DNA of 64,000 nucleotides, taken from the NCBI RefSeq assembly GCF_003344625.1, contig NZ_QPKJ02000001.1:1240001-1304000 (forward strand), read 5' to 3'. Below the pieces are notes generated by a model that searched no databases, was not told the DNA's origin, and saw only the letters and a list, made by a program, of their open reading frames with translations. The position numbers and the translations under genes were made by a program. Below, piece after piece: positions 5,101-45,992 of the stretch. The first letter of the stretch is position 1. Each line of letters begins with the position of its first letter. The stretch is from Solirubrobacter deserti (lineage in GTDB: Bacteria; Actinomycetota; Thermoleophilia; Solirubrobacterales; Solirubrobacteraceae).

Positions 5101-5612
5101 GGCTGCGGGGCGGGCGGCGCCGGGGCGACGATCGTCGCGATCGTCGCGGTCTCCTGGGTCGCACCCGTGTTCAGCTGCAGCCGGTCGCCCGGGGCCAGCC
5201 CTGCGGTGCTCTGCAGGCGGACCGCGCTCGCGCCGGCGGCCGCGGCCTGGTTGAGCGTCGTGTTGACGGTGGCGCGCGAGACGTTGCCCGCTTCGTCGAC
5301 CGCGCGGTAGCGCAGCGGCGTGTTGCCCTCCTGCGAGAGCGTCAGGCTCGCGGCCCCCGCCGTCGCCGGGACGTCGACGTAGGTCGCCCCGCCGTCCAGC
5401 GAGTACTGGAACTTGGTCACGGCGACGTCGTCGGTCGCCGACAGGTTCAGCGTCTGCGGCGCCGTCAAGCGCCAGTTGCCGTTGCCGCTCGCCGGTGTGG
5501 CGAACGTGGCCGGCGCCATCACCGGCGGCGTCGTGTCCTGCGCGTGTGCCGCGGTCGGCAGCGCAACCAGCGCAGCTCCGACCGCAGCCGCGGTCGCGGC
5601 TCTCCTGTACAC
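2190..5612 (-). CDS. Large secreted ThuA-domain protein with repeats and a shared C-terminal domain
   Basis: About 1140 residues. A Sec signal peptide (VGAALVALPTAAHA) is followed by Ig-like segments and at least three copies of a repeat of about 60 residues (AGAT-I-R-L ... ETV ... PNV-LT-PL-KAH). A ThuA/trehalose-utilisation-type domain lies at about residues 650-925 (GGGVIAIHGGTDA, TTLGHNWQYATETW). ThuA domains have a class I glutamine amidotransferase-like fold and occur in sugar-related proteins. A helical spacer follows. The last 120 residues or so match the C-termini of three other secreted proteins in this window and end in KTLTFTLSTTTP. I prefer the GTG at 5612, which directly follows a purine-rich Shine-Dalgarno-like run, over the ATG at 5627. 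Probable role: extracellular carbohydrate-linked protein; substrate unknown. Confidence 0.8.
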   Translation of the reverse strand: MYRRAATAAAVGAALVALPTAAHAQDTTPPVMAPATFATPASGNGNWRLTAPQTLNLSATDDVAVTKFQYSLDGGATYVDVPATAGAASLTLSQEGNTPLRYRAVDEAGNVSRATVNTTLNQAAAAGASAVRLQSTAGLAPGDRLQLNTGATQETATIATIVAPAPPAPQPNVTLTAPLANAHPATTAVAGTAFAHTIALQIDTKAPVATWGTQASTLAAPAAAGATGIRIASVSGRTAGETLQVDQGGNAETVKVASVDPTAAAPAPNVVLTSALTKAHISGANVYVPQVVDGKILQSQTLTPLRSDPRLRDSSDTVASGAGGAAPRRMTLDGEFMVPKTVNLNRLTVGKHTQTVSLQDAAGQTAKYVNTFVVTTSFADLATVIDQHADNALRTTLNGAQAVGATGLRLTAPVGGFRAGQQLVVGTGDGAETVTIAKALTPPPTLNTTLSAAATAGATQIRLASYTTETLTGPNPPSNNGPIIGQPIVLDTGANQEVVYVKRHLSPLPPAPAPNVELSAPLAKDHAAGTATSLNNVTLTTPLTKAHATGTTVANPQPLISAAKATELRALLADAKAKADAGQTAAAITALQAFNAAAAASRPLQSAGEALIAQLNGTPVDTTGTGITVEAAEDGVQAIRVFNNPSPFVNNPMATYKILVNGRAGGFRHQSIVDFHWMFQQLGFEHGFNVDIWDPNINGSPGRQAPAGVSLPTSPFLDYEQLKQYKTIIFNSTVGLNATSTVNAVEFANLQRFVREGGGVIAIHGGTDAMQNVPWYMDLVGAGFTNHGSNQGGILIDTESGGHVELINADPAHSTMQAVPRRFFSIEELYNTNRDPAALGIAHPLMYENEDTLVGQLGYGPGNGLHNTDKHVMTWCRNFDGGRSFTTTLGHNWQYATETWFRDMMLNAVQWTAGQEYSNCVTFNEVRDLLAKARADGNVTAAGNTALSAALEEADTAYRADDFAGAATHARTFVAEAKRAVHAGADNGAALLALQTKGAELVGWMSGNEAQPAAPVLQTDATGTVGGTVPATLALSLAGAATFQPFVPGVEQEYTTSVGAKVISSAGEATLSVSDPGHMTNGAFALAEPLRVSFSKSSWTAPTANENVDITFKQLIKRTDPLRTGSYRKTLTFTLSTTTP

Positions 5613-5653
5613 CCTCTCTCCCCTCATATGACCCTATTTGGTCCGGCGTGCCA

Positions 5654-14656: not shown

Positions 14657-14977
14657 ATGACCACGATCGCTGAAGAAGTCGAGGCGTGGCCCGGCGTGCA
14701 CGCCGAGCACGGCTCGCGGGGCGAGTACGCCTTCAAGGTGGGCGCGCGCGAGATCGGGCACGTGCACGGTGACCGCGTGCTGCACATCGGCTTCCCGAAG
14801 GCCGTCTGGCATGAGCTCCACGACGCCGGCCGGATCGACTACCACCCCGTCTTCCCGAACAAGCCGGGGTTCGGCTCGCGTGACCTACGCAGCGAGGACG
14901 ACGTGCGCGACGCGATCGAGCTGCTGCGCCTCAACTACGACCGCGTGATCGAGCGCTACGGGCTCCCCACCCCGTGA
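14657..14977 (+). CDS. DUF5519 (luciferase-domain-like) small protein
   Basis: A protein of about 106 residues matching the DUF5519 pattern: EEVEAWPGVHAEHGSRG, REIGHVHGDRVLHIGFP, and a C-terminal SEDDVRDAIELLRLNYDR. Family members are small soluble proteins of unknown role; the 'luciferase' name comes from similarity only. The start could be 14648 (inside the hairpin) or 14657 (directly after it); I chose the latter. Its stop overlaps the GTG of the next gene, so the two are likely co-translated. Confidence 0.65.
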   Translation: MTTIAEEVEAWPGVHAEHGSRGEYAFKVGAREIGHVHGDRVLHIGFPKAVWHELHDAGRIDYHPVFPNKPGFGSRDLRSEDDVRDAIELLRLNYDRVIERYGLPTP

Positions 14978-15840
14978 GGGCCGTCTGGCTGCGCGCGTTC
15001 GGCCCGCCTTCGGTGCTCGAGGCGGGTGAGGCGCCGGAGCCCACGAACCTAAAGAGGGACAGTCCCTCTTTAGGTTTGATCAAGGTCGAGTTCGCGAACG
15101 TCACGTTCGTCGAGACGCAGGTCCGAGCCGGCCGCGGCCCGTTCCCGGTGCAGCTCCCCATGATCCCCGGGAACGGCGTCGGCGGCCGGCTGGAGGGGCG
15201 ACGCGTGGTCGCTTCGCTCAACGGCCGCGGCGGCTACGCCGAGCGCGCCGTCCCGGGTGAGCTCTTCGACGTGCCGGACGAGCTCCCGCTCGATCACGCG
15301 GTCGCGCTGCTCGCCGACGGCCGCACCGCGACGCTGCTCACCGACGCGGCGGCGATCCAGCCCGGTGAGCGGGTGCTCGTCCTGGCCGCGGCGGGAGGCG
15401 TCGGCACGCTGCTCGTCCAGCTCGCGCGGCGGGCGGGCGCGACGGTGGTCGGGGCCGCGAGCGAGTCCAAGCACGACGTCGTCGAGCGGTTGGGCGGCGC
15501 GCCCAGGCGCTATGACGACCTGCCGGCCGCCGATGTGGTGTTCGACGGCGTCGGCGGCGCCGCGGCCCGCGCGGCCTTCCAAGCGCTCTCCCCCGGCGGC
15601 CGCATCCTCTCCTACGGCCTCGCCAGCGGCGCCTGGGCGGACATCACGCCCGAGCAGGCGGCCGCACGGGACGTCACGCTCGTCAAGACCGGCCGCCCCG
15701 AGCGCCACCACACCGAGCGCGCGCTGACCGCCGGCCTGAAGCCGATCATCGGCCAGCGCTTCGAGCTCGAGCAGGCCGCCGCCGCGCACGCCGCGATCGA
15801 GGCGCGCGCGACGGTCGGCAAGACCCTGCTCGTGCTCTAG
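14974..15840 (+). CDS. Zinc-type alcohol dehydrogenase/quinone oxidoreductase (MDR), with an inserted palindrome
   Basis: An enzyme of 288 residues of the medium-chain dehydrogenase/reductase superfamily, quinone-oxidoreductase branch. It has MRAVWLRAFGPPSVLE at the N-terminus, GNGVGGRLEG, the NADP-binding loop VLVLAAAGGVGTLLVQLARR and TVGKTLLVL at the end. It lacks the structural-zinc cysteines. Between residues about 24 and 36 the protein reads TNLKRDSPSLGLI, encoded by a perfect 31-bp palindrome (15046-15076) that is foreign to the family. It sits between the first beta strands, probably in a surface loop. Starts at a GTG overlapping the DUF5519 stop and overlaps the M1 peptidase gene tail to tail. 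Confidence 0.78.
   Translation: MRAVWLRAFGPPSVLEAGEAPEPTNLKRDSPSLGLIKVEFANVTFVETQVRAGRGPFPVQLPMIPGNGVGGRLEGRRVVASLNGRGGYAERAVPGELFDVPDELPLDHAVALLADGRTATLLTDAAAIQPGERVLVLAAAGGVGTLLVQLARRAGATVVGAASESKHDVVERLGGAPRRYDDLPAADVVFDGVGGAAARAAFQALSPGGRILSYGLASGAWADITPEQAAARDVTLVKTGRPERHHTERALTAGLKPIIGQRFELEQAAAAHAAIEARATVGKTLLVL
15046..15076. repeat. GGGAC/GTCCC palindromic element inside the MDR coding sequence
   Basis: The arm AACCTAAAGAGGGAC (15046-15060) and its exact reverse complement (15062-15076) flank a central A. The element stays open in the host frame and adds about 10-12 residues beginning N-L-K. It is near-identical in layout to the element at 21227-21267. Confidence 0.85.
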
Positions 15841-19446: not shown

Positions 19447-20938
19447 ACACGCCGTAGCCCACGTCGCGCAGCGGCGCGCCGGAGCACGCCCCGAGCGCGA
19501 GCCCGAGCACGTCGCGCGTGTCGCGCGGGTCGATCACGCCGTCGTCCCACAGCCGTGCGGTCGCGTAGTACGGGTGGCCCTGCTCCTCGTACTGCTCGCG
19601 CAGCGACGCGCCGACCTCCGGCTGGCCGACGGTCTCCATCACGGTCGCGGCCTGCTGGCCGCCCATCACCGAGATGCGCGCGTTCGGCCACATGAACAGG
19701 AAGCGCGGCGAGTACGCGCGCCCGCACATGCCGTAGTTGCCGGCGCCGAACGACCCGCCGACGATCACGGTGAGCTTGGGCACGCGCGCGCAGCTGACCG
19801 CCGTGACCATCTTCGCCCCGTGCTTGGCGATGCCGCCCGCCTCGTAGTCCTTGCCGACCATGAACCCGCTGATGTTCTGCAGGAACACGAGCGGGATGCG
19901 GCGGCGATCGCAGAGCTCGATGAAGTGGGCGCCCTTGAGCGCGGACTCGCTGAACAGGATCCCGTTGTTGGCCAGGATGCCGACCGGGTGGCCGTGGATA
20001 TGAGCGAAGCCGGTGACGAGCGTCGGCCCGTACAGCGCCTTGAACTCGTGGAAGTGCGAGCCGTCTACCAGCCGCGCGATCAGCTCGTGCGGGTCGTAGG
20101 GCTTGCGGACGTCGGCGGGCACGACGTCGAAGATCGAGTCCGCGTCGTGGTGTGGCGGCTCGACCGCGATCCGCTCCCAGGCGCGGGTCGGCTTCGGGAG
20201 CGTGGCGACGATGTCGCGGACGATCGCCAGCGCGTGCGCGTCGTCGTCGGCGAGGTGGTCGGTGACGCCGGACGTGCGCGAGTGCAGGTCGCCGCCGCCC
20301 AGCTCCTCCGCGGTGACCTCCTCGCCCGTCGCGGCCTTCACCAGCGGCGGGCCGCCGAGGAAGATCGTGCCCTGCTCGCGGACGATCACGCACTCGTCGC
20401 TCATCGCGGGCACGTACGCGCCGCCCGCCGTGCACGAGCCGAGCACCGCGGCGATCTGCGGGATGCCCTTCTCGGACATCGTCGCCTGGTTGAAGAAGAT
20501 CCGGCCGAAGTGTTCGCGGTCGGGGAAGACCTCGTCCTGCAGCGGCAGGAACGCCCCGCCCGAGTCGACCAGGTAGATGCACGGCAAGAGGTTGTGCAGC
20601 GCCACTTCCTGCGCGCGCAGGTGCTTCTTGACCGTCATCGGGTAGTAGGTGCCGCCCTTGACCGTCGCGTCGTTGGCGACGATCACGCACTCGCGGCCCT
20701 GCACCCGCCCGACCCCGGTGACGAGCCCCGCGCCGGGCGCGTCCCCGTCGTACATGCCGTGCGCGGCGAGCGGGCTCAACTCCAGGAACGGTGCGCCGTG
20801 GTCGAGCAGCCGGTCCACGCGCTCGCGCGGGAGCAGCTTGCCCCGGCTGGTGTGCCGTGCGCGGGCCTTCTCCCCGCCGCCCAGCCGCACGCGCTCGAGC
20901 TGCGCGTTCAGGTCGGCGACCAGCTCCGCGTGCGTCAT
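19436..20938 (-). CDS. 3-methylcrotonyl-CoA carboxylase beta (carboxyltransferase) subunit
   Basis: A carboxyltransferase of 500 residues. The crotonase-fold halves are visible: [54 protein letters not shown] and [20 protein letters not shown]. The H-x-x-SGVTDH motif and overall length fit the MCC beta branch rather than propionyl-CoA carboxylase. It transfers CO2 from biotin to 3-methylcrotonyl-CoA in leucine breakdown. The start overlaps the alpha-subunit stop by 4 nt (ATGA), so expression is coupled. With the acyl-CoA dehydrogenase upstream this is a liu-type leucine/isovalerate module. Confidence 0.85.
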
Positions 20939-22698
20939 GCGACCACCGCCACGATCTCGTCCCGCCCCACCTTGTCCCCCACCTTCACCTTCAGCTCGGT
21001 CACCGTGCCGTCAGATGGAGCGGTGAGCGAGAGCTCCATCTTCATCGACTCCAGCACCACCACGGGCTCGCCGGCCTTGACCTCGTCGCCCACCGCCCGC
21101 GGCGTGAGCAGCACCGACCCGGGCATCGGCGCCCGCAGCTCCCCGTCGCCCGCGACGTGGTGCAAGTCCTCCGCGCTCGGCTCGCTGACCCGCCACGTCC
21201 ACCCATCGACCGCCACCCACGGACCCGAACACAACCTTAAGGGGTCTGACCCCTTTAGGTTGTGTTCGATAGAGATCGGGGCGCCGCCGTTGACCGAGAG
21301 CGTCCAGTAGGACGGGGCGCGCGCGCCGCCGAGGCGCCAGCCGTCCACGCGCTGCCACGGGTCGTCGCCGGCGCGGCGCAGTTGTGCGGAAGCCCAGGCT
21401 GCGGCGGCCTCCTCGTCGGTGAGCGGCGGCTCCGGCGGGTCAAGGCGGCCGATCAGGCCCGTGTCCATCTCCCCCGCGCGCACGTCGTCGCGCGCAAGCA
21501 GCGAGCGCAGAAAGCCGACGTTGGTCTCCAGGCCGAGGATCGCGGTGTTGGAGAGCGCACGGTCCAGGCGCGCGAGGGCGGTGCGGCGATCCGGGCCGTG
21601 CGCGATGACCTTGGCGATCATCGAGTCGTAGTCCGTGCCGACCACGCTCCCGGTCTCGACCGCCGCGTCCACGCGCACGCCGGACGGGTACCGGGCGAGC
21701 AGCACGGGACCGGCGGACGGGAAGAAGCGCAGGTCCTCGGCGTTCACGCGGGCCTCGATGGCGTGGCCGGTCATTTCCACCTGGACGTCCAGCGGCTCAC
21801 CCGCCGCCACGCGCAGCTGCAGCTCGACCAGGTCCAGGCCCGTCACCAGCTCCGTAACCGGGTGCTCGACCTGCAGGCGCGCGTTCATCTCCAGGAAGAA
21901 GTGCTGCGACGGATCGTCTGCGTCGGCGATGAACTCGACCGTCCCCGCGCCGACGTAGCCCGCGGCCTGCGCCAGCGCCACCGCCTCGCGGCCGAAGACC
22001 TCCCTCAGCGCCGCGTCCACGACCGGCGACGGCGACTCCTCGATCACCTTCTGGTGGCGCCGCTGGAGCGTGCACTCGCGCTCGCCGAGCGAGATCACGG
22101 TGCCGTGCGTGTCGCCGATCACCTGCACCTCGATGTGCCGGGCGCGCGGGAGGAAGCGCTCGAGGAAGACGCGGTCGTCCCCGAAGCCCGCGGCGGCCTC
22201 GCGGCTCGCCGCCGCCATCGCGTCCGCCAGGTCCTCCGGACGCTCGACGACCCGCATGCCGCGCCCGCCGCCGCCCGCCGCGGCCTTGACCAGCACCGGG
22301 TACTCCGCCGTCTCCGGGGTGTACGTGGGGACGACCGGCACGCCCGCAACCTCCGCGGCCGCCTTCGCGCGCACCTTGTCCCCCATGAGCTCGATCGCGT
22401 CCGCCGACGGCCCGATGAACACGACGCCCATCTCCTCGCACGCACGCGCGAACGCCGGGTTCTCGCTCAGGAACCCGTAGCCGGGATGGACCGCGTCGCA
22501 GCGCGCGGCGACGACCATGATCTCGTCGATGCTCAAGTAGGACGAGACGAGCTCGGCGGCGTCGGCCTCACGCACGTGCGGCGCGTCGCGATCTGCCTCG
22601 GTGTAGATCGCCATGGACCGGATGCCGAGCCCGTGCAGCGTCCGCAGGACCCGGCGCGCGATCTCGCCGCGGTTGGCGACGAGCACGGAGTCGAACAC
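20935..22698 (-). CDS. 3-methylcrotonyl-CoA carboxylase alpha subunit (biotin carboxylase plus BCCP), with an inserted palindrome
   Basis: 587 residues from a GTG at 22698, 2 nt after the acyl-CoA dehydrogenase stop. The biotin carboxylase domain covers about 1-445 ([40 protein letters not shown]). A linker domain follows, and the C-terminal biotinyl domain has [10 protein letters not shown], whose lysine carries biotin (ESMKM in place of the common EAMKM). Between linker and biotinyl domain the protein contains [13 protein letters not shown], encoded by a 41-bp palindrome (21227-21267) that is not part of the family. The enzyme carboxylates biotin with ATP and bicarbonate. Confidence 0.87.
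21227..21267. repeat. GGGGTC/GACCCC palindromic element inside the carboxylase alpha coding sequence
   Basis: The arms 21227-21246 and 21248-21267 pair over 20 bp with one mismatch around a central T. The gene reads it in the phase [10 protein letters not shown], the same N-L-K phase as the element in the MDR gene at 15046-15076. Confidence 0.85.
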
Positions 22699-22700
22699 GG

Positions 22701-23834
22701 CTAGGCCCCGAGCGCCCGCGCGATCACCATCTGCTGCACCTCGTCGGTGCCCTCGCCGATGGTGAGGATCTTCGCGTCCCGGTACATGCGGCAGACCGGG
22801 TACTCCTCGATGTAGCCGTAGCCACCGTGGATCTGCACGGCCTCCTCGGCGCAGCGTACCGCCAGCCGGCCCGTCTTGAGCTTCGCCTGCGCGGCCGTGA
22901 GCGTGAAGTTGCGGCCCTGGTCCTTGAGCCGCGCGGCCTTGTAGACGAGCAGCCGCGCCGCCTCGATCTCGGTCGCCATGTCGGCGAGCTTGGCCTGGAT
23001 GGCCTGGAACTTGGAGATCGGCTTGCCGAACGCGCGCCGCTCCTTCGCGTAGGCCAGCGCCTGGTCGAGCGCGCCCTGCGCGAGGCCGACGCCCATCGCC
23101 GCCACGCCGATGCGCCCGATGTCCAGCACGTGCAGGAACTGCTTGAAGCCGGCGCCGCGCGGGCCGAGCAGGTTCTCCTCCGGCACCACGCAGTCCTCGA
23201 ACGTCAGCGGCCGCGTGTCCGACGCGTTCCAGCCCATCTTGCGGTACGGCTCGCCCTGGAAGTAGCCCGGCGTGCCGTTCGGGACGATCAGGTTGGAGAT
23301 CTCGTCCTCGCCGGTGCGCGCCGTGATGCACACCACGCCGGAGATGTCCGTGCCCGCGTTGGTGATGAACTGCTTGGCGCCGTTGATCGTCCAGCCGTCC
23401 TCGTTCAGCGAGGCGCGCGTGCGCACGTTGCCCGCGTCCGACCCCGCTTCGGGCTCGGTCAGCCCGAACGCGCCCAGGACCTCGCCGCTCGTCAGCTTCG
23501 GCAGCCACTCGGCCTTCTGCTCCTCGGAGCCGAACAGGTAGATCGGCTGCGTCCCGAGTGACGTGTGGGCGCAGAGCGTGATCGCCACCGACGAGTCCAC
23601 ACGCGTGAGCTCCTCGACCGCGATCGCGTAGGCCAGCGAGTCCGCCCCCGCCCCGCCGTACTCCTCCGGGAACGGGATGCCCATCAGCCCGAGCTCCCCG
23701 AGCTGCTTGACGATCGCGTACGGGAACGCCTTCGTGCGGTCGAGCTCCTCCGCCACCGGAGCGACCTCCTGCTCGGCGAAGTCGCGCACCGTGCGCCGGA
23801 TCAGCTCGTGGTCGTCGGGGAGATCGAAGTTCAT
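22701..23834 (-). CDS. Acyl-CoA dehydrogenase (isovaleryl-CoA-type by context)
   Basis: A flavoenzyme of 377 residues: MNFDLPDDHELIRRTVRDFA at the N-terminus, GAFGLTEPEAGSDAGNVRT for substrate and FAD binding, FGKPISKFQAIQAKLADMA, and the C-terminal IHGGYGYIEEYPVCRMYRD with ILTIGEGTDEVQ. It introduces the alpha-beta double bond into a short or branched acyl-CoA. The downstream methylcrotonyl-CoA carboxylase genes argue for isovaleryl-CoA. The ATG at 23834 is 6 nt behind TATAAG, so the transcript is probably leaderless. It is divergent from the TetR gene across the operator at 23842-23863. Confidence 0.85.
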   Translation of the reverse strand: MNFDLPDDHELIRRTVRDFAEQEVAPVAEELDRTKAFPYAIVKQLGELGLMGIPFPEEYGGAGADSLAYAIAVEELTRVDSSVAITLCAHTSLGTQPIYLFGSEEQKAEWLPKLTSGEVLGAFGLTEPEAGSDAGNVRTRASLNEDGWTINGAKQFITNAGTDISGVVCITARTGEDEISNLIVPNGTPGYFQGEPYRKMGWNASDTRPLTFEDCVVPEENLLGPRGAGFKQFLHVLDIGRIGVAAMGVGLAQGALDQALAYAKERRAFGKPISKFQAIQAKLADMATEIEAARLLVYKAARLKDQGRNFTLTAAQAKLKTGRLAVRCAEEAVQIHGGYGYIEEYPVCRMYRDAKILTIGEGTDEVQQMVIARALGA

Positions 23835-25708: not shown

Positions 25709-27511
25709 ATGGCCGACACCGCCCAACGCTCATCCGCCGCCGAGGAGCGATCGCTCGGCGGCCTCGCGCTCGCCGCCGCCGACCGCCATTCGGGGGACGC
25801 GATGCGCGCCCCGGGCCGGCCCGCCATCACCTACGCCGAGTTCGGCCGCGCGATCCGTGAGATCGCCGGCGGCCTCGCGGCGCTCGGCGTCGAGCCCGGG
25901 GATCCAGTGGCGATCCTGTGCGGCACGATCCCGGAGTGGACGCTCGCCGACTTCGGCGCGTTCTGCGCCGGCGCGGTCGTCGTGCCCGTCTACCACACGA
26001 ACTCGCCCGAGGAGTGCGAGTACGTCCTCCAGCACAGCGGCGCGAAGGTCGTGCTGCTCGAGGACGCCGAGCAGGCGGCGAAGGTCGCCGCCGTGCGCCC
26101 GAACCTGCCCGAGCTCGAGCACGTCGTCGTCCTCACCGGCGAGGCGCCGGACGCCATCACGCTGGCCGACCTGCGCGGGCGCGGCGTCGAGAACGGCGAG
26201 CAGGTCGCGCGTGAGCGCACGGAAGCGATCACGCCCGACGACACGGCGACGATCGTCTACACGAGCGGCACCACCGGCCCGCCGAAGGGCTGCGTGCTCT
26301 CGCACGGCAACCTCCTCTACACGGCCGGCGCGTACATCGAGCGGCTCGAGCTGCGGGACAAGCCGTCGATTATGTTCCAGTACCTGCCGCTCGCCCACGT
26401 GCTCGCGCGCATGGTCTCGTTCGTCACGATCGAGGTCGGCGGCACGCTCGCGTTCTGGGGCGGGGACACCAAGAACCTCGCCGCCGACATCGCCGAGGCC
26501 CAGCCGACGCACATCCCGACCGTCCCGCGGCTGCTCGAGAAGATCATGACCCGCGTGATCAGCACGGCCGAAGGCGCCGGCGGCGCGAAGGCCGCGATCT
26601 TCAAGCGTGCGCTGTCCACGGGCGAGAAGGTGGCCAAGGCCCAGCGCGAAGGCGGCTCGGTCAACCCGCTGATCAAGATCCAGGCCGCGCTCGGCCACAA
26701 GCTCGCGCTGTCGAAGGTCAAGAACGCGCTCGGGCCCAACGATCCGGTGCTGATCACGGGCGCCGCGCCGATCGGCGCGGAGGTGATCGAGTTCTTCTAC
26801 GCCTGCGGCGTGCCCGTGCTCGAGGGCTACGGCATGACGGAGACGTGCGCGGCGGCGACGCTCAACACGCTGTCGGAGATTCAGGTCGGCTCGGTCGGGC
26901 GCCCGCTTCCCGGCACGGAGGTCTCGCTCGGCGACGACGGCGAGATCCTCATGCGCGGCCCGCACGTCTTCAAGGGCTACCACCGCAACCAGGAGGCCAC
27001 CGACGCCATCATCGACGACGACGGCTGGCTGCACTCGGGCGACCTGGGTGAGATCATCGACGGCTACGTCCGCATCACGGGCCGCAAGAAGGACCTGATC
27101 ATCACCTCCTCGGGCAAGAACGTCTCGCCGGAGATGCTCGAGTCCGCGCTGCGCGAGACGCGCTGGATCTCGCAGGCGATCGCGGCCGGCGACCGCCGCT
27201 CCTACCTCGTCGCGCTCGTGACCATCGACCCTGACGAGGCGCCCAAGCTCGCCGCGGAGCTCGGCGTGCCCGCCGACCCCGAGTCGATGGCGACCGACGA
27301 GAAGGTGCGCGAGCGCATCTGGGAGGACATCGACACCGTCAATCAGCGCTTCGCCAGGATCGAGCAGATCAAGCGGTTCGCGATCCTCCCGCACGACCTC
27401 TCGCAGGAGACGGGCGAGCTGACGCCGACGCTGAAGGTCAAGCGCTCGGTCGTGTACGAGAAGTACGCCGGGGACGTGGACGCGCTCTACGAGGGCACGC
27501 CTAGCGAGTGA
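25709..27511 (+). CDS. Long-chain fatty acyl-CoA synthetase (AMP-forming)
   Basis: About 600 residues. The AMP-binding signature is YTSGTTGPPKGCVLSHGNLL near residue 183; later motifs are VLEGYGMTETCAAATLN, WLHSGDLGEI and GRKKDLIITSSGKNVSPE. It resembles the FadD15/long-chain branch. It activates fatty acids with ATP and CoA at the membrane face. A -10-like TAGGGT at 25694-25699 places the transcription start within a few bases of the ATG at 25709, so the message may be nearly leaderless; an in-frame GTG at 25703 is the alternative. It overlaps the convergent LuxR gene by 11 nt. Confidence 0.87.
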   Translation: MADTAQRSSAAEERSLGGLALAAADRHSGDAMRAPGRPAITYAEFGRAIREIAGGLAALGVEPGDPVAILCGTIPEWTLADFGAFCAGAVVVPVYHTNSPEECEYVLQHSGAKVVLLEDAEQAAKVAAVRPNLPELEHVVVLTGEAPDAITLADLRGRGVENGEQVARERTEAITPDDTATIVYTSGTTGPPKGCVLSHGNLLYTAGAYIERLELRDKPSIMFQYLPLAHVLARMVSFVTIEVGGTLAFWGGDTKNLAADIAEAQPTHIPTVPRLLEKIMTRVISTAEGAGGAKAAIFKRALSTGEKVAKAQREGGSVNPLIKIQAALGHKLALSKVKNALGPNDPVLITGAAPIGAEVIEFFYACGVPVLEGYGMTETCAAATLNTLSEIQVGSVGRPLPGTEVSLGDDGEILMRGPHVFKGYHRNQEATDAIIDDDGWLHSGDLGEIIDGYVRITGRKKDLIITSSGKNVSPEMLESALRETRWISQAIAAGDRRSYLVALVTIDPDEAPKLAAELGVPADPESMATDEKVRERIWEDIDTVNQRFARIEQIKRFAILPHDLSQETGELTPTLKVKRSVVYEKYAGDVDALYEGTPSE

Positions 27512-30311
27512 GCAGCCCGAGCTGGCCGGCGCGGTTGGCGGCCTCGGTCCGCGTCCGGCAGCCGAGCTTGGCCAGGACGTTGCGGACGTGCATGTCGACG
27601 GTGCGCGGGCTCAGGAACAGCTCGCGTGCGATCTCCCGGTTCGTCCGGCCGAGCGCGACGAGCCGGGTGATCTCGACCTCGCGGCGGGTCAGCCCGGCGG
27701 ACGCATGCTGGGCGGCGGCGCGCGGCCCGAGCCGGCGCTCCAAGGGCTCGCCCAGCCGCTCGAACGCCTGCGCGGCGGCGGTTGCGAGCGGCTTGGCCTG
27801 CAGGCGCTTGGCCGCGCGGTAGCTCTCCTCCAGCCGCTGCAGCGCCGCTTCCCGCCGGTCGCTCCGCGCGAGCGCGACGCCGGCGCGCAGTGCGATCTGC
27901 GCGCGCTCGAACGGGATCTCGAGGTCGGCGTGCAGGTCCAGCGCGCGCGTGAGCTTGTCGGCGGCCTGCTGCGTGTCGCCTTCGGCGAGGGCGATCTCCC
28001 CCAGCGCGTGCGCGAGCGCGGCCAGCGCGTCGGCGTGAGCGGTCTCGGCGGCGATCGTCGACAGGGCGGCGGCCGCGGCGCGGGCCCGCGGCAGGTCGCC
28101 GTGGCGGGCCAGCAGCTCCGCGGCGGTGCGCAGACCCCAGACGGCGTAGTGGTGGTCTTCGGTGCGCTCCCAGCGCTCCAGCACCGCGAGCGCGTGCTCG
28201 ACGGCGGCGGACGGGTCCTGCGCGTCCAGGTAGGCGAGCGCGGCGACGCTGTCGACGCCCATCGAGACGACGTCGAGGCGCGCGGCCGTGGCGCGGCAGC
28301 GGAGCAGGAGCGGACGGGCGTGGCGGGTGTCGCCGCGGAACGCGAGGATCGAGCCGAGGATGCCGTCCGCGACGAGCGCGTCGTCAGCGCGCGCCCGGCC
28401 CGCGCCGAGCTCCTTGCACAGCGCCGCGGCCTGATCCCAGTCGCCGAGCTCGCGCAGCACGTACGCCATGCAGCTCAGGCACGTGTGTTCCTGCCCGCGC
28501 TCGCCGGTCGCCTCGCACAGGCCGACCGCCGTCGTCAGCGCCTCCCGCGCGCCGCCGTAGTCTGCGGCGCTCTCCATCGCGGTGGCGAGCCGCTGGTAGA
28601 GCTCGGCCGCCTCGGCGGTGAGCTCGTGCGCAAGCGCGAGCGCCAGGCCGGCCCGGATCGTCTCGACGCCCTCGCCGTACCGCCCGCGCTTGGCCTGCGC
28701 GACCCCTTCGAGCCCGAACGCCCGCGCCCGCAGGTCGCTGCGGTCGGCCGCGAGCGCGTCGGCGGCCGCGGCGCGTGCGAGTTCGACCGCCTCCTGATGG
28801 CGCCCCGCGCTCTGCGCGTACGCGGCGAGCCCGAGCCGCTCACCGGCCGCCTCGGCGCGGCGCCCGCCGAGATCGAAGGCGGCGACCGCGTCGCGGCGCG
28901 CGACCAGCGCACGTTCCCGATCGCCCTGCAGCTCATAGAGCCCGGCCAGCCGCCGCGCGGTGACGCCGCGCTCGGCTCCGTGGCGCAGCGCGGCGGCCTC
29001 CCGCAGCGCGCGGGTCGCCTCGGCGAGGTCGCCGGCGAGCTCGGCGGAACGGGCGTAGACGTCGAGCGCGGCGAGTCGCTCGCCGGAGCGGACGCCCTCC
29101 GGCCACAACTCGAGCGCCTGCAGCGCCGCGGCGGCGGCGTCACGGTGCGCGTGCACGCGCGCGAGGTCGTGGGCCGCCGCCAGGAAGGCGTCGAGCGCGC
29201 GAGCGCGGTCGCCGGCGGCCAGGCGGTGGGCGGCGATCGTGGCGTGCGACGCGCCGCCGAACTCGAGCGCGTCGGCGAAGCCGGCGTGCAGGTCGCGGCG
29301 GCGGCGCCACGGGATGTCCTCGTAGATCGCGCCGCGGACGAGCGCGTGGCGGAACGCGGCGCGGCCGGGACGGATCTCGACGATCAGCCCTGCCTCGAGC
29401 AGCTCGTCCAGCGCGGGCGCCAGGTCGAGCCGGAACTCCGGTCCGACGACCGCGGCGGCTTCGGCGGCGGCGCGGCCCGCGCCGGACAGGCCCATCGTGC
29501 GCAGCAGCACGGCGTCGCGGATGGTCTCGGGGATCGGGACGTCCGCGTCGTGCTCGAGCTCCAGGCCGTCCGGGCCGGCGCGCAGCCGCTCCCCGGCCTG
29601 CAGGCCGGCGGCGAGCTCCTGGACGAAGAACGGGATGCCCTGGGTGCGGTCGTACAGCGCTTCGGCGAGCGCCGGGGCGGGCGGCGATCCGAGCGTCCGC
29701 GCGGCCAGCTCCCGCGTGCCCGCGGCGTCGAGCGGCCGCACGACGAGCTCGCGGAGCGCTCGCGCCCGGCGCAGATCGGCGCGCAGGCGCCGCAGCGGGG
29801 CGCGGACCTCGTCGGTGCGATACGCACCCACGACGAGCAGCGCCTGTTCCCGCAGCGGCACGGCGAGCGCGGCCAGCAGGTCGAGGGTCGCGCCGTCCGA
29901 CCACTGCAGGTCGTCGAGCAGGACGACGGCCGGAGCGACCGCCACGAGCGCGCCATGGACGGCCTCGAAGAGCGTGGCCCGGTCGCCGCTCGGGTCCGGC
30001 TCGCCGAGCTCGGGCAGCAGCAGCGCCAGATGCGGGCGCAGCCGGCCACAGGCGTCGAGCGCGGCCGGGTCCTCGCGCAGGCGTGACCGCAGCGCCGCGA
30101 CCACCGGCCCGTAGGGCGCCGCGGCCGGCGCGTGGGCGGCGCCGCGCAGCAGCGGCAGGCCGGCGAACGCGGTCTCGGCCAGATGGCTCTTGCCCACGCC
30201 CGCCTCACCGGCCAGCAGCACGAGCGCGCCGCGCCCCGCCAGCGCGTCGGCGGCCGCGTCCGCGAGCCACGCGGTCTCCTGTCGGCGGCCGATGAGCGCC
30301 GGGGCCGTCAC
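27501..30311 (-). CDS. LuxR-type ATPase regulator (LAL/AAA plus TPR plus HTH)
   Basis: A protein of 936 residues from a GTG at 30311. The N-terminal AAA ATPase module has Walker A GEAGVGKSHLAE near residues 35-45 and Walker B AVVLLDDLQWSDG. The long middle is TPR-like helical repeats. The C-terminal LuxR helix-turn-helix reads LTRREVEITRLVALGRTNRE and LFLSPRTVDMHVRNVL. Such LAL regulators are ATP-dependent activators of secondary metabolism or carbohydrate genes. No target is obvious nearby. A palindromic element lies 16 nt upstream of the start, and the 3' end overlaps the acyl-CoA synthetase gene. Confidence 0.87.
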   Translation of the reverse strand: MTAPALIGRRQETAWLADAAADALAGRGALVLLAGEAGVGKSHLAETAFAGLPLLRGAAHAPAAAPYGPVVAALRSRLREDPAALDACGRLRPHLALLLPELGEPDPSGDRATLFEAVHGALVAVAPAVVLLDDLQWSDGATLDLLAALAVPLREQALLVVGAYRTDEVRAPLRRLRADLRRARALRELVVRPLDAAGTRELAARTLGSPPAPALAEALYDRTQGIPFFVQELAAGLQAGERLRAGPDGLELEHDADVPIPETIRDAVLLRTMGLSGAGRAAAEAAAVVGPEFRLDLAPALDELLEAGLIVEIRPGRAAFRHALVRGAIYEDIPWRRRRDLHAGFADALEFGGASHATIAAHRLAAGDRARALDAFLAAAHDLARVHAHRDAAAAALQALELWPEGVRSGERLAALDVYARSAELAGDLAEATRALREAAALRHGAERGVTARRLAGLYELQGDRERALVARRDAVAAFDLGGRRAEAAGERLGLAAYAQSAGRHQEAVELARAAAADALAADRSDLRARAFGLEGVAQAKRGRYGEGVETIRAGLALALAHELTAEAAELYQRLATAMESAADYGGAREALTTAVGLCEATGERGQEHTCLSCMAYVLRELGDWDQAAALCKELGAGRARADDALVADGILGSILAFRGDTRHARPLLLRCRATAARLDVVSMGVDSVAALAYLDAQDPSAAVEHALAVLERWERTEDHHYAVWGLRTAAELLARHGDLPRARAAAAALSTIAAETAHADALAALAHALGEIALAEGDTQQAADKLTRALDLHADLEIPFERAQIALRAGVALARSDRREAALQRLEESYRAAKRLQAKPLATAAAQAFERLGEPLERRLGPRAAAQHASAGLTRREVEITRLVALGRTNREIARELFLSPRTVDMHVRNVLAKLGCRTRTEAANRAGQLGLLTR

Positions 30312-30326
30312 GGCGCGAGTCTAAAG

Positions 30327-30354
30327 CACCTTAAGGGGTCTGACCACTTAGGTG
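30327..30354. repeat. Degenerate palindromic element upstream of the LuxR-type gene
   Basis: CACCTTAAGGGGTC ... GACCACTTAGGTG is the same palindrome type as at 21227-21267, with one mismatch and one indel between the arms. It forms the outer end of a duplicated block shared with 30391-30419. Confidence 0.7.
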
Positions 30355-30390
30355 GTGGCGGGGACCGGATCGGGCGTCGACGATCGGCGG

Positions 30391-30419
30391 CCACCTGAGG
30401 GGTCTGACCCTTCAGGTGG
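30391..30419. repeat. Palindromic element carrying the DUF4242 stop codon
   Basis: CCACCTGAGGGGTC (30391-30404) and GACCCTTCAGGTGG (30406-30419) pair with one mismatch. The TGA stop of the DUF4242 gene (30412-30414) lies inside it. The codons beside it (for V-N-P-D-P-V-P-A-T-T) recur in diverged form between this element and the one at 30327-30354. Confidence 0.75.
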
Positions 30420-30705
30420 TCGCGGGGACCGGATCCGGGTTGACGATCACGGTGTCGGCGACGAGGGTGATCTCGTCGGCGGGCATGCCGGTGCGCTCGG
30501 CCTGCTCGCGGACCTTCTCGGCACTGGTGCCCTCGTAGAGGCAGACCGTGCCGAGCTTGCCAGACTCCTCCTGCACGACGTAGGTGCGGATCCAGCGGAC
30601 GTCGTCGGACATCTCGGCCCCGACCTCGGCGGATCGGGCGGCGGTCTGCTGAAGCTCCTCGGGCGTACCCCAGAAGTCACGGCGGCGGATGGCGTAGAGG
30701 TTCAT
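30412..30705 (-). CDS. DUF4242 (SCO4226-like) protein
   Basis: 97 residues from the ATG at 30705. It matches the DUF4242/SCO4226 family of small ferredoxin-like fold proteins, one of which from Streptomyces binds nickel. Motifs are MNLYAIRRRDFWGTPEELQQ, IRTYVVQEESGKLGTVCLYE and ADEITLVADTVIV. It probably acts as a cytoplasmic small-molecule or metal binder. The stop codon is inside a palindromic element and the last residues (NPDPVPATT) may derive from repeat-linked duplication. Confidence 0.75.
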   Translation of the reverse strand: MNLYAIRRRDFWGTPEELQQTAARSAEVGAEMSDDVRWIRTYVVQEESGKLGTVCLYEGTSAEKVREQAERTGMPADEITLVADTVIVNPDPVPATT

Positions 30706-33026: not shown

Positions 33027-35261
33027 CTACGGGTTCGTCGTGCTCAACGTGAACGTCAGCGTCTTGCTGTACGTGCCCGTGCGGAGCGCGTCGTTGGCGC
33101 CGATCGCCTGCTTGAAGGTGATCGTCGGCTTGTCGTTGGACACCGGGCCGGTGTAGGTCTTCACGGTGCCGAGGCCCTGGAGGGGCTGCGGCAGCACGAA
33201 GGAGCCGTTGACCAGATGCCCCTTGTTGGTCGTGCTCGGGTCGGTGACCGAGAGGGTCGCGTCGCCGGCGGTGGAGGTCACGGTCGGCGTCGTGGTCGCC
33301 GTGTACTCCTGCGCCACGCCCGGGACGAACGGCGCGAACGACGCCGCCGTGCCCATCTCGAGCGACAGCGTCGCCCCGACGGAACCGCCCACGGTGCCCG
33401 TCGTCTCGGCCGTCACGGTGTAGTTGACGGTCTTGGTCGACGTATTGCCGGCCTTGTCGGTCGCGGTCACCGTGTACGACGCCGGCCCGAAGGTCGACGT
33501 GTTGAGGTTGGTCACGCTCGCGATGCAGGACTCGACGCCCGAGTCGGCGTCCGTGCACGTGAACTGCGGCGCTTGCGTGGAGCCCTGCTTGTAACCCTTG
33601 CCCTCATCGGTCGACGTGATCGTCGGGCCCTGGAGGTCCTGGGCGACGCCGCCGATCTGCGTCTGCGGGTTCGACAGGTCCGGCGTGCGGACCCGGCGCA
33701 TCGAGTCGTGGTCGAGGTTCCAGATCAACAGACCGCGACGGATGTCGGACTCGTAGATGCGGCCGTTGTAGTAGTGCGTGGACCAGTTGCCGGACGTCGG
33801 CCAGGTGTTGGTCGCCTCAGGCGTGTACTCGCTCGGGTCGGCGTACGCGATCTGCTGCGGGGCCTGCACGTTCGTGAAGTCGAACACCGAGATGCCCATC
33901 TCGTAGTTGCCCGAGACCGCGTAGTAGCCCTTGTACGTCGGCACGACGTTGAAGTTGTGCCACGTGCAGTTCTCGGTCGCGGACTGCGGGCGCGGCTGGA
34001 CGAACGTGCCCAGCGTCTCGCCGTTGGCCGAGTTCAGGAAGAACAGCGAGCGGTCGACGACGCTGTCCGTCGCCTCGCACGCGGCGCCGGTGCCGCCGCC
34101 CGGCTCATGGCCGAAGATCAGCACCTTGCCGTCGTAGGTGAACGAGCCGGAGTGGCCGATGCCGACGCCGGTGATGACCTTCGTCCACGCCACGGTCGGG
34201 TTCGCCACGCCGCCCGGGCTCTCGACCGTGCCGGCCGCGTCCGGGGCCTTGCTCATGTCGAACTTGTACATCGTCAGGCCGTTGCCGCCGGCGCACATCG
34301 CGTAGCCGATGCTCGAGCCGTCGACGCCCATCAGCACGTTGTTGTCGTGGCAGGACTGGCCGTTGCCGGTCGTCGGGTTCCGGCCGCGCTCGTTGTACGC
34401 GTGGTTGACGAACTTCGCGTCCATCAGGTCGTTCTGGTTGATGCGGACGATGTCGATGCCCGGGCACGCAGCGCCCGAGCCGCCGACGTACAGCCACAGG
34501 ACGCCACGCGCGTCATCCGGCACGCCCGTCGCGGTGTGGGCGCCGCAGCCGATCGCCGGCGCGCCCTCCTCGTTGCCGGTGGCCGCCATCCGAACCTGAC
34601 GCCTGAACTGCGGGTTCTTCGGGTCCGAGATGTCCCAGATGTGGATGCCCTCGAAGCCGGCGCCGACCGCGCGGCCCTCGCACGTCGCGTTCGCGTTCGC
34701 GTTCGTGGAGTTCGGGGAGTCCCACGTGCGCACGAGGATGTTGCCGTGCACGACCACGTCGCCCTGGCCGGACGTGTGGCGGCAGTTTTCGGTGTTCCAC
34801 ACCTGCTCGGGCTTGGTGGGATCGGTGATGTCGATCACGCGGAACCCGCTCCAGTGGCCCTGGAACGCGTAGTTGCCCTTGAAGGCGATGTCCGAGTTGA
34901 TGTCCGGGAGGCTCGTCATGGGGTGCCGCGGGGGCACGCGCGCCGAGTAGCCCAGCGGCGTCAGGTTCTCGCTCTTGGCGTAGGTCGCCGTCTCGGCGAC
35001 CGGGTCGCCCGGCGCGACGGCGCTGCGCGCCTTGGCCGCGCTCAGCGACTCCGTGATCGGTGCGCAGTCGGCGTCGTTGCTCTGCGGCGGGATCGAGCCG
35101 GCCCAGGCCGTCCCGGTGTTGTTCGCCGTCAGGAAGGTGGCGTTGGACAGCGTCCACGCTTCCGTGCACGGGTGCGCGAGCGCGGACGACGGGGCCAGCG
35201 CCCCTACCGCGAGCGTCGCGCCTACTCCCGCTAAACCGGCGAGGCTCCTCTTCAAACGCAT
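33027..35261 (-). CDS. Secreted LVIVD-repeat protein (first paralogue) with a shared C-terminal domain
   Basis: 744 residues from the ATG at 35261, which has a good GAGAGGGG Shine-Dalgarno. Signal peptide LAVGALAPSSALAHP. The body is made of LVIVD-type beta-propeller repeats (FRVIDITDPTKPEQV, IHIWDISDPKNPQFR, ISVFDFTNVQAPQQ). An Ig-like insert follows (YTVTATDKAGNTSTKT), then the shared C-terminal domain ending in TLTFTLSTTNP. LVIVD repeats are found on cell-surface proteins of unknown function. It is the tandem paralogue of the gene at 35376-37709, including its leader. Confidence 0.82.
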   Translation of the reverse strand: MRLKRSLAGLAGVGATLAVGALAPSSALAHPCTEAWTLSNATFLTANNTGTAWAGSIPPQSNDADCAPITESLSAAKARSAVAPGDPVAETATYAKSENLTPLGYSARVPPRHPMTSLPDINSDIAFKGNYAFQGHWSGFRVIDITDPTKPEQVWNTENCRHTSGQGDVVVHGNILVRTWDSPNSTNANANATCEGRAVGAGFEGIHIWDISDPKNPQFRRQVRMAATGNEEGAPAIGCGAHTATGVPDDARGVLWLYVGGSGAACPGIDIVRINQNDLMDAKFVNHAYNERGRNPTTGNGQSCHDNNVLMGVDGSSIGYAMCAGGNGLTMYKFDMSKAPDAAGTVESPGGVANPTVAWTKVITGVGIGHSGSFTYDGKVLIFGHEPGGGTGAACEATDSVVDRSLFFLNSANGETLGTFVQPRPQSATENCTWHNFNVVPTYKGYYAVSGNYEMGISVFDFTNVQAPQQIAYADPSEYTPEATNTWPTSGNWSTHYYNGRIYESDIRRGLLIWNLDHDSMRRVRTPDLSNPQTQIGGVAQDLQGPTITSTDEGKGYKQGSTQAPQFTCTDADSGVESCIASVTNLNTSTFGPASYTVTATDKAGNTSTKTVNYTVTAETTGTVGGSVGATLSLEMGTAASFAPFVPGVAQEYTATTTPTVTSTAGDATLSVTDPSTTNKGHLVNGSFVLPQPLQGLGTVKTYTGPVSNDKPTITFKQAIGANDALRTGTYSKTLTFTLSTTNP

Positions 35262-35280
35262 TGCACCCCTCTCGTCAAGC

Positions 35281-35312
35281 GGTCCCCTCATGGACCATGC
35301 GAGAAAGCTATC
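35281..35312 (-). promoter_or_regulatory. Promoter and leader hairpin of the first LVIVD gene
   Basis: On the minus strand GATAGC (-10-like, 35312-35307) is followed by a leader with the hairpin GGTCC-ATGAGG-GGACC and then GAGAGGGG before the ATG. The same block precedes the second LVIVD gene at 37727-37759. Confidence 0.4.
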
Positions 35313-35335
35313 CGCGTTATGAGCGTGAGATGAAG

Positions 35336-35369
35336 GAGCGGGGCGTGGAGGTTTCTCCACGCCCCGCTC
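35336..35369 (-). terminator. Strong terminator hairpin behind the second LVIVD gene
   Basis: A perfect 15-bp stem (35336-35350 with 35355-35369) closes on a 4-nt loop, starting 6 nt past the stop codon. No U tract. Confidence 0.65.
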
Positions 35370-35375
35370 ACATCG

Positions 35376-37709
35376 TTACGGCGTGGTGGTGCTCAGGTTG
35401 AACGTGAGCGTCTTGCCGTAGGTGCCGGCCTGCAGCGCGTCGTTGTTGGCGGAGATCGCCTGCTTGAAGTGCAGGTTGGCCGAGCGGTTCGCCACCGGCG
35501 TCGCGTAGGACAGGATCGGCGTCGGGTTGCTCGCGCCACCGACGTTGCCGCCCGCGAGGGCGGTCGCGCCGTTGCTGCCGCTGGTAGTGAGGAAGACCTG
35601 CAGCGGCGAGGACAGCGCGCGCGTGCCGTTCATCAGACGGCCGGTGGCCGTCGTCGCGGCGTCATAGATGCTCAGCGTCATGTCGGACCCCGTCGAGGTG
35701 ATCGTCGCGTTGACGTTCGCCTCGTAGGTCTTGGTGAGACCCGGCGTGAGCGGGCCGAACAGCACCGAGCCCGGCAGCGACAGGCTCATGATCGACTCGA
35801 CCGTGCCGCCGTTGACCTGCACGGGGACGTCGATGCTGTTGACCTTGTAGGCCACCGACTTGGTGAAGATGTTGCCCGACTTGTCGGTGGCCGTGACGGT
35901 GAACGTCTTGGTCCCGAGCTTGGTGTCGATCGCGGCGCCGTCGTCGACGGTGCCGACGCAGGACTCGATGCCCGTCGCGTCCGCGCAGTCGAAGTCGGCC
36001 ATCATCGCCGTGCCGGCCTTGTAGGCGGCGCCCTCGCCCGGGGTGCGGACGTTGATCGTCGGCATCTCCGCGTCAGGCGCGTACGAACCGATCTGCGTCT
36101 GCGGGTTCGACTGGGCGAACGTGTTGAACTGCTTCAGGTGCGCGTTGGCCTGCGTGGCCGTGGCGTCGCTGCCCAGGTTGAGCTGCCAGGACAGGACACC
36201 GCGCTTGATGTCGGACTGGTAGATCGTCCCGTTGTGCCAGTAGGTCGACCAGTCGCCGCCGAGGATGATCTCGGTGGTGGGTGGCGTGGTCTGCAGGACC
36301 GGCGGGTCGGCGTAGGCGAGCTCCTTCGGGGCGGCCGGGTTCGAGAAGTCGAACACGGAGATGCCGGACTGGTAGGAGCCGACGGTCGCGTAGTAACCGG
36401 CCTTGGTCGGCACGACGTTGAAGTTGTGCCAGGTGCAGTTCTCACGCGAGCCCTGCGGGCGCGGGTGCAGCATCTCGCCCGTCGTCTTGCCCGTGAGCGG
36501 ATCCAGGAAGTACAGGGTGCGCTCGACCGGCAGGCTCGTGGCCTGGCAGCGCGCCGCCGAGCCGCCGCCCGGCTCGTGGCCGTAGATCAGGTGCTTGCCG
36601 TCGTAGGTGAACGAGCCGGAGTGGCCCGTCGTGACACCCGGCATCTGCTGCGTCCAGAGCTGGATCGGCTTCTCGACCGAGCCCTCCTCCTCGACCGGCT
36701 TGGTGAGGTCGAACTTGAACATGGCGAGGCCGTTGCCGCCCGCGCACATGGCGTAGGAGGTCGTGGTGCCGCCGACGTTCAGGAGCACGTTGTTGTCGTG
36801 GCAGGAGTTGTTGCCCACGCGCTCGACGCCCGTCTTGGCGTCGATGCCCTCGTTGGAGGCGCGACCGATGATGTCGATCTGCTTCGGGTCCGAGATCTTG
36901 ATCTTGAAGATGTCGATGCCCTCGCAGCTGCCGCTCGAGCCACCGTTGTAGATGTAGAGCGCGTCACGCGTCGGATCCGGAACGGCCGTCGCGGTGTGCG
37001 AGCCGCAGCCCTGGTTGCGCAGCACGCTGCCCTCGGGCATGCCGGTCCCCGCGAAGCGCAGCGAGCGAACGTACTCCGGCTTGGTCGGATCCTTGATGTT
37101 GAAGACGTGGATGCCCTCGAAGTTCGCGCCCACGGCCTCGCCGCCGCACATCGGGTTCGAGTGGTTCGGCGAGTCCCACGAGCGGACCAGGATGTCGCCG
37201 TAGACGACGACGTCGCCCTGGCCGACGGGGCAGCCGTCGTAGTTGACGAGCTCGACCGGGTTCTTCTTGTCGGTGAAGTCGAGGATGCGGAAGCCCGCGT
37301 ACGTGCCGGCGATGACCAGGTTGTCCTTGAACGCCAGATCCGAGTTGTAGACACCGGCGCTGGTACCGGTGTACGGGACGTCGCGGCGGCTGTAGCCGAG
37401 CGGCGACAGGTTCTTGATGGCCCAGTTGGAGACGATCGGCCCGGGATCCTCGCCCACCGCCGACGTCGCGACGGCCGAGGTCTCATACAGGTAGGAGTTC
37501 AGGTCCTCGGCGCACTCGTGGTCGAGGTTCTCGAACGCCGGCAGCGCCCCGGCCCAGTTCCCGCCGGTGTGGAGCGAAAGCGACTTGCCCATGGCCGCTT
37601 CGGTCTCGGAAATACACGGATGCGCCATCGCTGCCGACGGCGCCAGAGCACCGACCAACAGCATCGCGCCTACCCCCGCCGCGCTGGCGAGGCCCCTCTT
37701 AAAACGCAT
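35376..37709 (-). CDS. Secreted LVIVD-repeat protein (second paralogue) with a diverged shared C-terminal domain
   Basis: 777 residues. Signal peptide MLLVGALAPSAAMAHP. LVIVD propeller repeats (FRILDFTDKKNPVELV, IHVFNIKDPTKPEYV, ISVFDFSNPAAPKELA) and conserved blocks CAGGNGLAMFKFD, GHSGSFTYDGKHLIYGHEPG and ENCTWHNFNVVPT are shared with the first paralogue, so this is a tandem duplication. The C-terminal domain is longer and more diverged but still ends in KTLTFNLSTTTP. Same leader and Shine-Dalgarno as its neighbour. Surface-located by inference; function unknown. Confidence 0.82.
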   Translation of the reverse strand: MRFKRGLASAAGVGAMLLVGALAPSAAMAHPCISETEAAMGKSLSLHTGGNWAGALPAFENLDHECAEDLNSYLYETSAVATSAVGEDPGPIVSNWAIKNLSPLGYSRRDVPYTGTSAGVYNSDLAFKDNLVIAGTYAGFRILDFTDKKNPVELVNYDGCPVGQGDVVVYGDILVRSWDSPNHSNPMCGGEAVGANFEGIHVFNIKDPTKPEYVRSLRFAGTGMPEGSVLRNQGCGSHTATAVPDPTRDALYIYNGGSSGSCEGIDIFKIKISDPKQIDIIGRASNEGIDAKTGVERVGNNSCHDNNVLLNVGGTTTSYAMCAGGNGLAMFKFDLTKPVEEEGSVEKPIQLWTQQMPGVTTGHSGSFTYDGKHLIYGHEPGGGSAARCQATSLPVERTLYFLDPLTGKTTGEMLHPRPQGSRENCTWHNFNVVPTKAGYYATVGSYQSGISVFDFSNPAAPKELAYADPPVLQTTPPTTEIILGGDWSTYWHNGTIYQSDIKRGVLSWQLNLGSDATATQANAHLKQFNTFAQSNPQTQIGSYAPDAEMPTINVRTPGEGAAYKAGTAMMADFDCADATGIESCVGTVDDGAAIDTKLGTKTFTVTATDKSGNIFTKSVAYKVNSIDVPVQVNGGTVESIMSLSLPGSVLFGPLTPGLTKTYEANVNATITSTGSDMTLSIYDAATTATGRLMNGTRALSSPLQVFLTTSGSNGATALAGGNVGGASNPTPILSYATPVANRSANLHFKQAISANNDALQAGTYGKTLTFNLSTTTP

Positions 37710-42851: not shown

Positions 42852-42933
42852 GTACTGCCCCCCATCCCTCTGTAGCCCCCAGTGCGCGAGCCCGCTCCCC
42901 TCCGTCCTGCCGGGGCTCACGCGGCGATCATAA

Positions 42934-45918: not shown

Positions 45919-45969
45919 GCGACACCTGTCGCGTTAAGGGGACTGTCCCCTTCGCGCGACAATTGTCGC
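45919..45969 (-). promoter_or_regulatory. Two GCGACA-NN-TGTCGC sites upstream of the proline genes
   Basis: GCGACACCTGTCGC (45919-45932) and the perfect palindrome GCGACAATTGTCGC (45956-45969) are the same site 37 bp apart. They lie between the PucR-type regulator and proline dehydrogenase, where an activator would bind. A GGGGAC/GTCCCC palindrome (45936-45952) separates them. Confidence 0.5.
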
Positions 45970-45992
45970 TAAAGAGGGACTGTCCCTCTTTA
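45936..45992. repeat. Two palindromic elements at the end of the PucR-type gene
   Basis: AAGGGGAC-T-GTCCCCTT (45936-45952) and TAAAGAGGGAC-T-GTCCCTCTTTA (45970-45992) are both perfect. The second carries the TAA stop (45990-45992) of the regulator. They belong to the same family as 15046-15076 and 21227-21267. Confidence 0.8.

Follow-up and report, generated by a model that had tools for sequence, protein, structure and literature searches.

The gene for a predicted biotin-dependent carboxylase (mccA) in the window, the whole 64,000-nucleotide stretch of Solirubrobacter deserti DNA analysed here, contains an in-frame REP-like insert that is probably linked to a RAYT transposase, and the site of this insert has probably been kept in five species of one genus (that of the window, and those of genomes G001, G003, G004, and G005) while the element occupying it was exchanged. 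The features of the window to which we refer are these:

14974 to 15840, plus strand: zinc-type (MDR) dehydrogenase gene carrying an AGGGAC palindrome (Pfam ADH_zinc_N / ADH_zinc_N_2)
15046 to 15076: second in-frame palindrome, a member of the AGGGAC family lying close to the 5′ end of the MDR gene
20938 to 22701, minus strand: carboxylase alpha subunit, methylcrotonyl-CoA carboxylase-like by its Pfam domains, with a shortened BT region
21226 to 21268: REP-like palindrome of the GGGGTC family, in frame in mccA, coding for 14 residues on the minus strand
30326 to 30420: two GGGGTC-type palindromes just upstream of an AAA_16/GerE gene (27501 to 30311, minus strand)
45919 to 45995: two palindromes where the proline dehydrogenase and PucR-type genes meet, either between them or at their end

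A palindrome at the same codon of mccA in five species

The palindrome in mccA has 21-nt arms (21226-21246 and 21248-21268) in which 20 of 21 positions pair (95% complementary), and a 1-nt centre. An earlier note on this DNA had described the same object as 21227-21267 with 20-bp arms, omitting the outermost pair, and had given the insert a length of 41 bp, a number not divisible by 3; 14 residues require 42 nt (21226-21267), and the in-frame 14-residue peptide that it reported is indeed seen in the minus-strand open reading frame 20938-22701. No clean empty mccA site was found among the orthologues and homologues compared, so that the true length of the insert may differ from these 42 nt. A chance palindrome is ruled out by a hairpin score of 18 in the window, as against best scores of 9 to 13 per shuffle in 20 dinucleotide-preserving shuffles, and by the RNA folding energy of the mccA copy (-31.7 kcal/mol, z -6.9), which none of 200 shuffles equalled; an assembly error is ruled out by G021, a second genome of the same species, in which the surrounding 301 bp are 100% identical. 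The idea that a remnant of an older hairpin is nested in mccA was dropped, the long arms recurring elsewhere: the outer arms of the window's copy are found again at G021 C85 (91% over 43 bp).

The product of the host gene appears to be the alpha subunit of a biotin-dependent carboxylase resembling methylcrotonyl-CoA carboxylase, the substrate being predicted. Biotin_carb_N, CPSase_L_D2, Biotin_carb_C, and Biotin_lipoyl all exceed their Pfam cut-offs; BT_MCC_alpha stays below its own (26.3 bits vs 31) and is matched only over positions 6-49 of its 118. The biotin carboxylase domains extend to about residue 417, the biotinyl domain starts at residue 521, and the palindrome-coded residues lie between them, where the earlier note had placed them; the "flexible linker" of that note is putative, the segment itself aligning to a shortened BT domain. 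The stretch between the biotin carboxylase and biotinyl domains is 127 residues long here vs 142-184 in all 12 aligned outgroup proteins. AlphaFold, given a 13-row alignment, returned pLDDT <50 for residues 423-518 and so no usable model of the region. Outside the genus, no homologue found exceeds 55% identity (an earlier homologue alignment recovered 9 of the 20 sequences tried), and the nearest named carboxylases among the matches listed are those of Patulibacter and Conexibacter, which suggests Solirubrobacterales. The gene is under purifying selection, with dN/dS of 0.16-0.24 among the window's species, G001, G003, and G004, and of 0.32-0.42 against G005.

Four same-genus mccA orthologues were found, three of them 88-90% identical to the gene in the window and that of G005 76%. 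All four carry a palindrome at the homologous codon and in the same phase (5/5 mccA genes with that of the window), and in three it is spelled with other letters: the window's species and G003 have GGGGTC, G001 has ACGTCC, G004 has GGGGCC, and G005 has GGGGTC/GGCCCC. Because the same-genus orthologues also carry an insert at this place, the mccA insert is not the recent, private insertion that the earlier note had envisaged. In G002, a fifth same-genus species, we found neither a close mccA orthologue nor a RAYT gene, and only 1-2 matches to the REP patterns. The letters in mccA of G001, G004, and G005 are those of the most frequent family in the sample from that genome (ACGTCC, 32/67; GGGGCC, 38/62; and GGGGTC/GGCCCC, 23/32, respectively), the sampled loci having been chosen for carrying a REP, and the families having been recognized by the patterns TAAA-N11/N13-TTTA, so that the AGGGAC family (N15) falls outside the genome-wide count. 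Six N13-type matches on GC-rich contigs of the window's genome comprise five GGGGTC and one GGCCCC variant; the sample of loci from this genome was picked with the GGGGTC core and so gives no ranking of GGGGTC as the commonest family there; the G003 sample is mixed (75 N11-type vs 14 N13-type matches) and does not establish the mccA family as its commonest. The mccA copies of the window's species and G003 differ at 5/43 positions when aligned directly and at 2/43 after inversion, and an inverted copy retains the peptide except for one or two residues.

Five of the six family consensuses can be read through in a single phase per strand, and their two strands then encode identical or almost identical peptides; AGGGAC can be read through in two phases. 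Phase, to which the earlier note had given weight, is accordingly no discriminating argument. The window's mccA copy, being an imperfect palindrome, has two of three phases open on each strand, and the phase in use is the only one open in both orientations. The phase shared by the MDR and carboxylase copies, noticed earlier, arises from the element's sequence together with selection against stops; an orientation bias, the other cause then suggested, is superfluous given the open-phase counts. In a survey of 204 REPs, 26 were part of an uninterrupted open frame whose flanks share its strand and phase and 178 were not so placed, and 21 in the same setting had stops; it used a crude codon model with some weak coding scores, and it missed copies near gene ends such as the MDR copy. 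Palindromes <300 bp from a locus end were excluded here and from the stricter filter below. The coding copies do have counterparts outside coding frames elsewhere. A stricter coding filter found 24, of which 3 are one natural palindrome in a ligase-like gene; of the 21 left, as read from their peptides, 18 use the canonical phase, 2 use the second phase that is open in AGGGAC, and 1 GGGGCC element uses a phase that is normally closed.

The other palindromes of the window differ in how far they are shared. The MDR copy at 15046-15076 is common to G003 only, of four relatives compared. At its position G001, G004, and G005 have some 4-5 unrelated residues instead of the palindrome, and because of these residues the insertion there is not a clean addition. 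Three relatives have one more in-frame REP in this MDR gene, at G001:C2:1374840, G004:C236:249124, and G003:C11:44110 (about 15500 in the window); it is AGGGAC in two of these relatives and ACGTCC in one, and none was detected in the window's genome. At 30326-30420, G004 has other REP types, and none was seen in G001 and G003; at 45919-45995 the window has GGGGACTGTCCCC vs GGGGTCTGACCCC at the same place in G001. The window also contains repeated stretches that are 60-85% alike (2190-5627, 33027-35360, 35376-37709, and 39948-42920), and their sequences suggest that several of its large minus-strand open reading frames are paralogues; the right flank of the REP site G001:C1:1293950 resembles these stretches.

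REP-like families and putative RAYT genes

The mccA insert appears to be a REP-like hairpin of a RAYT (TnpA_REP-type) transposase system, the RAYT activity being putative. Its exact core GGGGTCTGACCCC is present in 10 copies in the 7.55-Mb genome, and a 25-bp form gives 25 strand-wise matches at up to 3 mismatches; reversed controls gave 0 in both cases. It is a short dispersed palindrome in many copies, that is, a REP in the broad sense, and RAYT genes are likewise flanked by palindromes, several loci having one side imperfect or not seen. Three Y1_Tnp genes of the window's genome exceed the Pfam cut-off: that at C200:637064 has a GGGGTC-type palindrome to its right and the related form CATCAACGGGTCTGACCCCTTTAGG to its left, and each of the other two lies between AGGGAC-type palindromes. 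Beside the RAYT genes of the relatives, on one side or on both, there are palindromes of other families. The proteins have RAYT-like GNHxHL and NPVxAG motifs, and both GNHxHL and the Y of Y...NPVxAG, which we take to be the catalytic tyrosine, are invariant in nine proteins from ten loci. At L057, L059, and L029 the C-terminal residues of the RAYT are themselves encoded by the flanking REP (e.g., 20 residues).

The consensuses of five families are symmetric about TAAA/TTTA, some with weak GAAC/GTTC feet, and none has a GTAG or CGTC tag at the element end; we write "REP-like" because this GTAG/CGTC head is missing from the ends. A syntenic RAYT is 48-73% identical among the window's species, G001, G003, and G004, vs 90-93% for the neighbouring protein, and the REPs differ at that locus. 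The TAAAGGGGYCWGRCCCCTTTA form occurs in 4/151 genomes of the order, all four of the same genus and two of them of one species, in a draw made without G004 and G005 and with a pattern blind to the ACGTCC and AGGGAC families. AT-rich, non-REP matches to the patterns concentrate on small contigs of G000 (C36, C57, C77, C94, C132, and C410); this is the sole genome with many control matches and has a listed contamination of 5.04%, which suggests that these small contigs are contaminants.

Sites that probably persist while cores switch

The sequences compared suggest that REP sites in general persist while the element changes, mccA being no special case. We found 25 orthologous loci occupied in at least two species, and 40 of their 53 occupied species pairs lack a common core; the number of differing bases, out of 13 in the core, is 1-2 in 14 of these pairs and 3-9 in the other 26. 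Of the 53 pairs, mccA supplies 10 and the RAYT locus 6; with both removed, 26 of the remaining 37 pairs differ, and in 17 the difference amounts to at least 3 bases. These counts are of loci chosen for carrying a REP, so that sharing is biased; G021 is excluded from them as from all cross-species counts, and one G003 site, with paralogous surroundings, is paired with two G001 sites. Non-REP core strings were removed throughout (six in the 204-REP survey, eight in the orientation and 25-locus counts), one having slipped through; the removed strings include the palindrome CGCCTGCCAGCCG, unchanged in G001 and G003, which leaves one unswitched pair uncounted.

A random sample, drawn to offset this bias, consisted of 8 ACGTCC sites from the 26 that were eligible in G001, and four genomes were searched for their flanks. 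Twelve of 17 readable orthologous positions were occupied, 10 of the 12 by another core, and 5 were empty; three of the 12 are degenerate palindromes, of which the one at site 4 may match the second REP of a G001 doublet. Seven of the 8 sites had at least one readable junction and site 3 had none, the right flank of site 6 lies in a multi-copy gene family, and the reading did not extend to the match of site 1 in G003 or, for other sites, to matches of one flank alone. Persistence is only partial, because of the five empty random positions and because 38 site/genome combinations in the fetched set have no detected REP.

Some sites preserve what may be intermediates of exchange: at 10/188 sites there are two or more cores (in four cases differing by a single base), and 10/181 REPs lie between half-REPs on both sides, vs 0/1007 displaced positions. 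One REP sits at the tip of a GC-rich hairpin in G001, where G000 and G003 have the plain GC-rich hairpin and G004 has none. At the L336 junction of G004 (C211), an empty position where G001 and G003 have a REP, there is a scar-like GAACCTAGTTC, which resembles two REP feet after loss of the middle. Pairing beyond the core exceeds that of 300 shuffles at offsets 16 to 18 (at offset 16, 13/204 REPs have at least 5 further pairs; shuffle mean 1.9, maximum 6), and shows no excess at offset 15 (7/204; shuffle maximum 11); it stems partly from nested REPs and long element variants.

Probable exchange in place and its alternatives

The main rival to exchange in place is that the old REP was lost in each lineage and a REP of a new family inserted independently at the same hot spot. 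Enzymes of the IS200/IS605 type have fixed target sequences, empty positions and a scar-like remnant do exist, and in switched pairs the centre points either way at random (the same way in 17, the opposite way in 14, with some pairs counted from both sides), which fits exchange and re-insertion equally well; yet such re-insertion would require several independent events at mccA, where the homologous codon is filled in 5/5 species that have the gene, and must also accommodate the 12/17 random positions that are filled. By a rough estimate, chance would have G001 and G004 sharing 0.1 to 1 site, vs the 15 seen, mccA and the RAYT locus included, and we regard independent re-insertion as unlikely.

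We consider it more improbable still that the palindromes were inherited vertically and that their letters drifted by compensatory mutation, with selection for an mRNA or DNA hairpin, or template-switch repair, maintaining the pairing. The strong RNA fold of the mccA copy would suit such drift, as would the 14/40 differing pairs whose cores are separated by just 1 or 2 bases (among them GGTGCC/GGGGCC at s10 and, both at s11 and at 45.9 kb of the window, GGGGAC/GGGGTC), but 26/40 pairs differ at 3 or more core bases, a change from GGGGTC to ACGTCC alters the length and most of the arm letters, and a single ACGTCC core occupies 32 places in the G001 sample, whereas independent drift would not converge at many loci. 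As for a recent, selfish insertion private to one species and retained through its open phase, the mobile and dispersed type of the element and the presence of the MDR copy in only one of four relatives (G003) would fit it, but for mccA it is refuted by the same-genus orthologues, 4/4 of which have the insert, and we give it almost no credence.

Exchange of the element at a retained site remains our preferred reading. We suppose that a hairpin entered mccA once, in an ancestor, and would have been tolerated there because its phase is open in both orientations, the peptide of the palindrome being nearly the same either way round; that a new REP would enter at or beside the old one, which would then be lost; that the RAYT would perform the exchange; and that the standing hairpin, single-stranded during replication, would most likely be the preferred landing place.

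Parts of this picture are already in print. In the portions of the papers available to us, GTAG/CGTC REPs inside open reading frames add residues, and the recB genes of X. campestris and of X. oryzae have different REPs at about the same site (Di Nocera et al. 2013, PMC3733652); our palindromes likewise lie inside reading frames and add residues, but they have no GTAG/CGTC head, and differing elements share a site at many loci of one genus. The accessible text of Nunvar et al. 2013 (PMC3686654) and 2010 (PMC2817692) describes REP/RAYT orthoswitches, in which syntenic RAYTs are flanked by different REP classes, the RAYT evolves faster than its neighbours, and palindromicity is retained, all of which we also see; unlike that model, in which old REPs stay and decay, we find new families at positions that other families hold in relatives, and the published expectation, as far as these portions give it, counts against exchange in place. 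The parts available of PMC3116915, PMC8049555, PMC8266576, and PMC3390384 make no mention of exchange in place. The literature already knows in-frame REPs as well as RAYT/REP orthoswitches; what we did not find in the open-licence literature searched, and what is apparently new, is REP exchange in place across numerous loci.

Rickettsia palindromic elements are reportedly also protein-coding, in-frame palindromic inserts in genes (Ogata, Claverie, and colleagues); ours resemble them, by description only, in being in-frame coding inserts, and differ in being short (about 29-43 bp) and RAYT-linked. A review by Higgins et al. in 1988 is said to have asked about REP evolution by gene conversion.

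In the sources as available to us, the spread and mutual replacement of REPs is an open question, and the mccA codon, at which the hairpin family differs between species, offers a clean natural record of it; the 25 shared loci make replacement vs re-insertion directly testable. The gene also illustrates how an enzyme can gain about 14 residues from a palindromic element for which it makes almost no difference which way round it lies. We tentatively advance the further possibility that REP sites are long-lived docking places, at which a change in RAYT specificity lets a new hairpin overwrite the old one genome-wide, protein genes included. If so, a transposase would drive the replacement of very short elements while their sites are preserved, amounting to concerted evolution without long homology, and overwriting would leave reading frames unbroken, the palindrome being coding-neutral to inversion.
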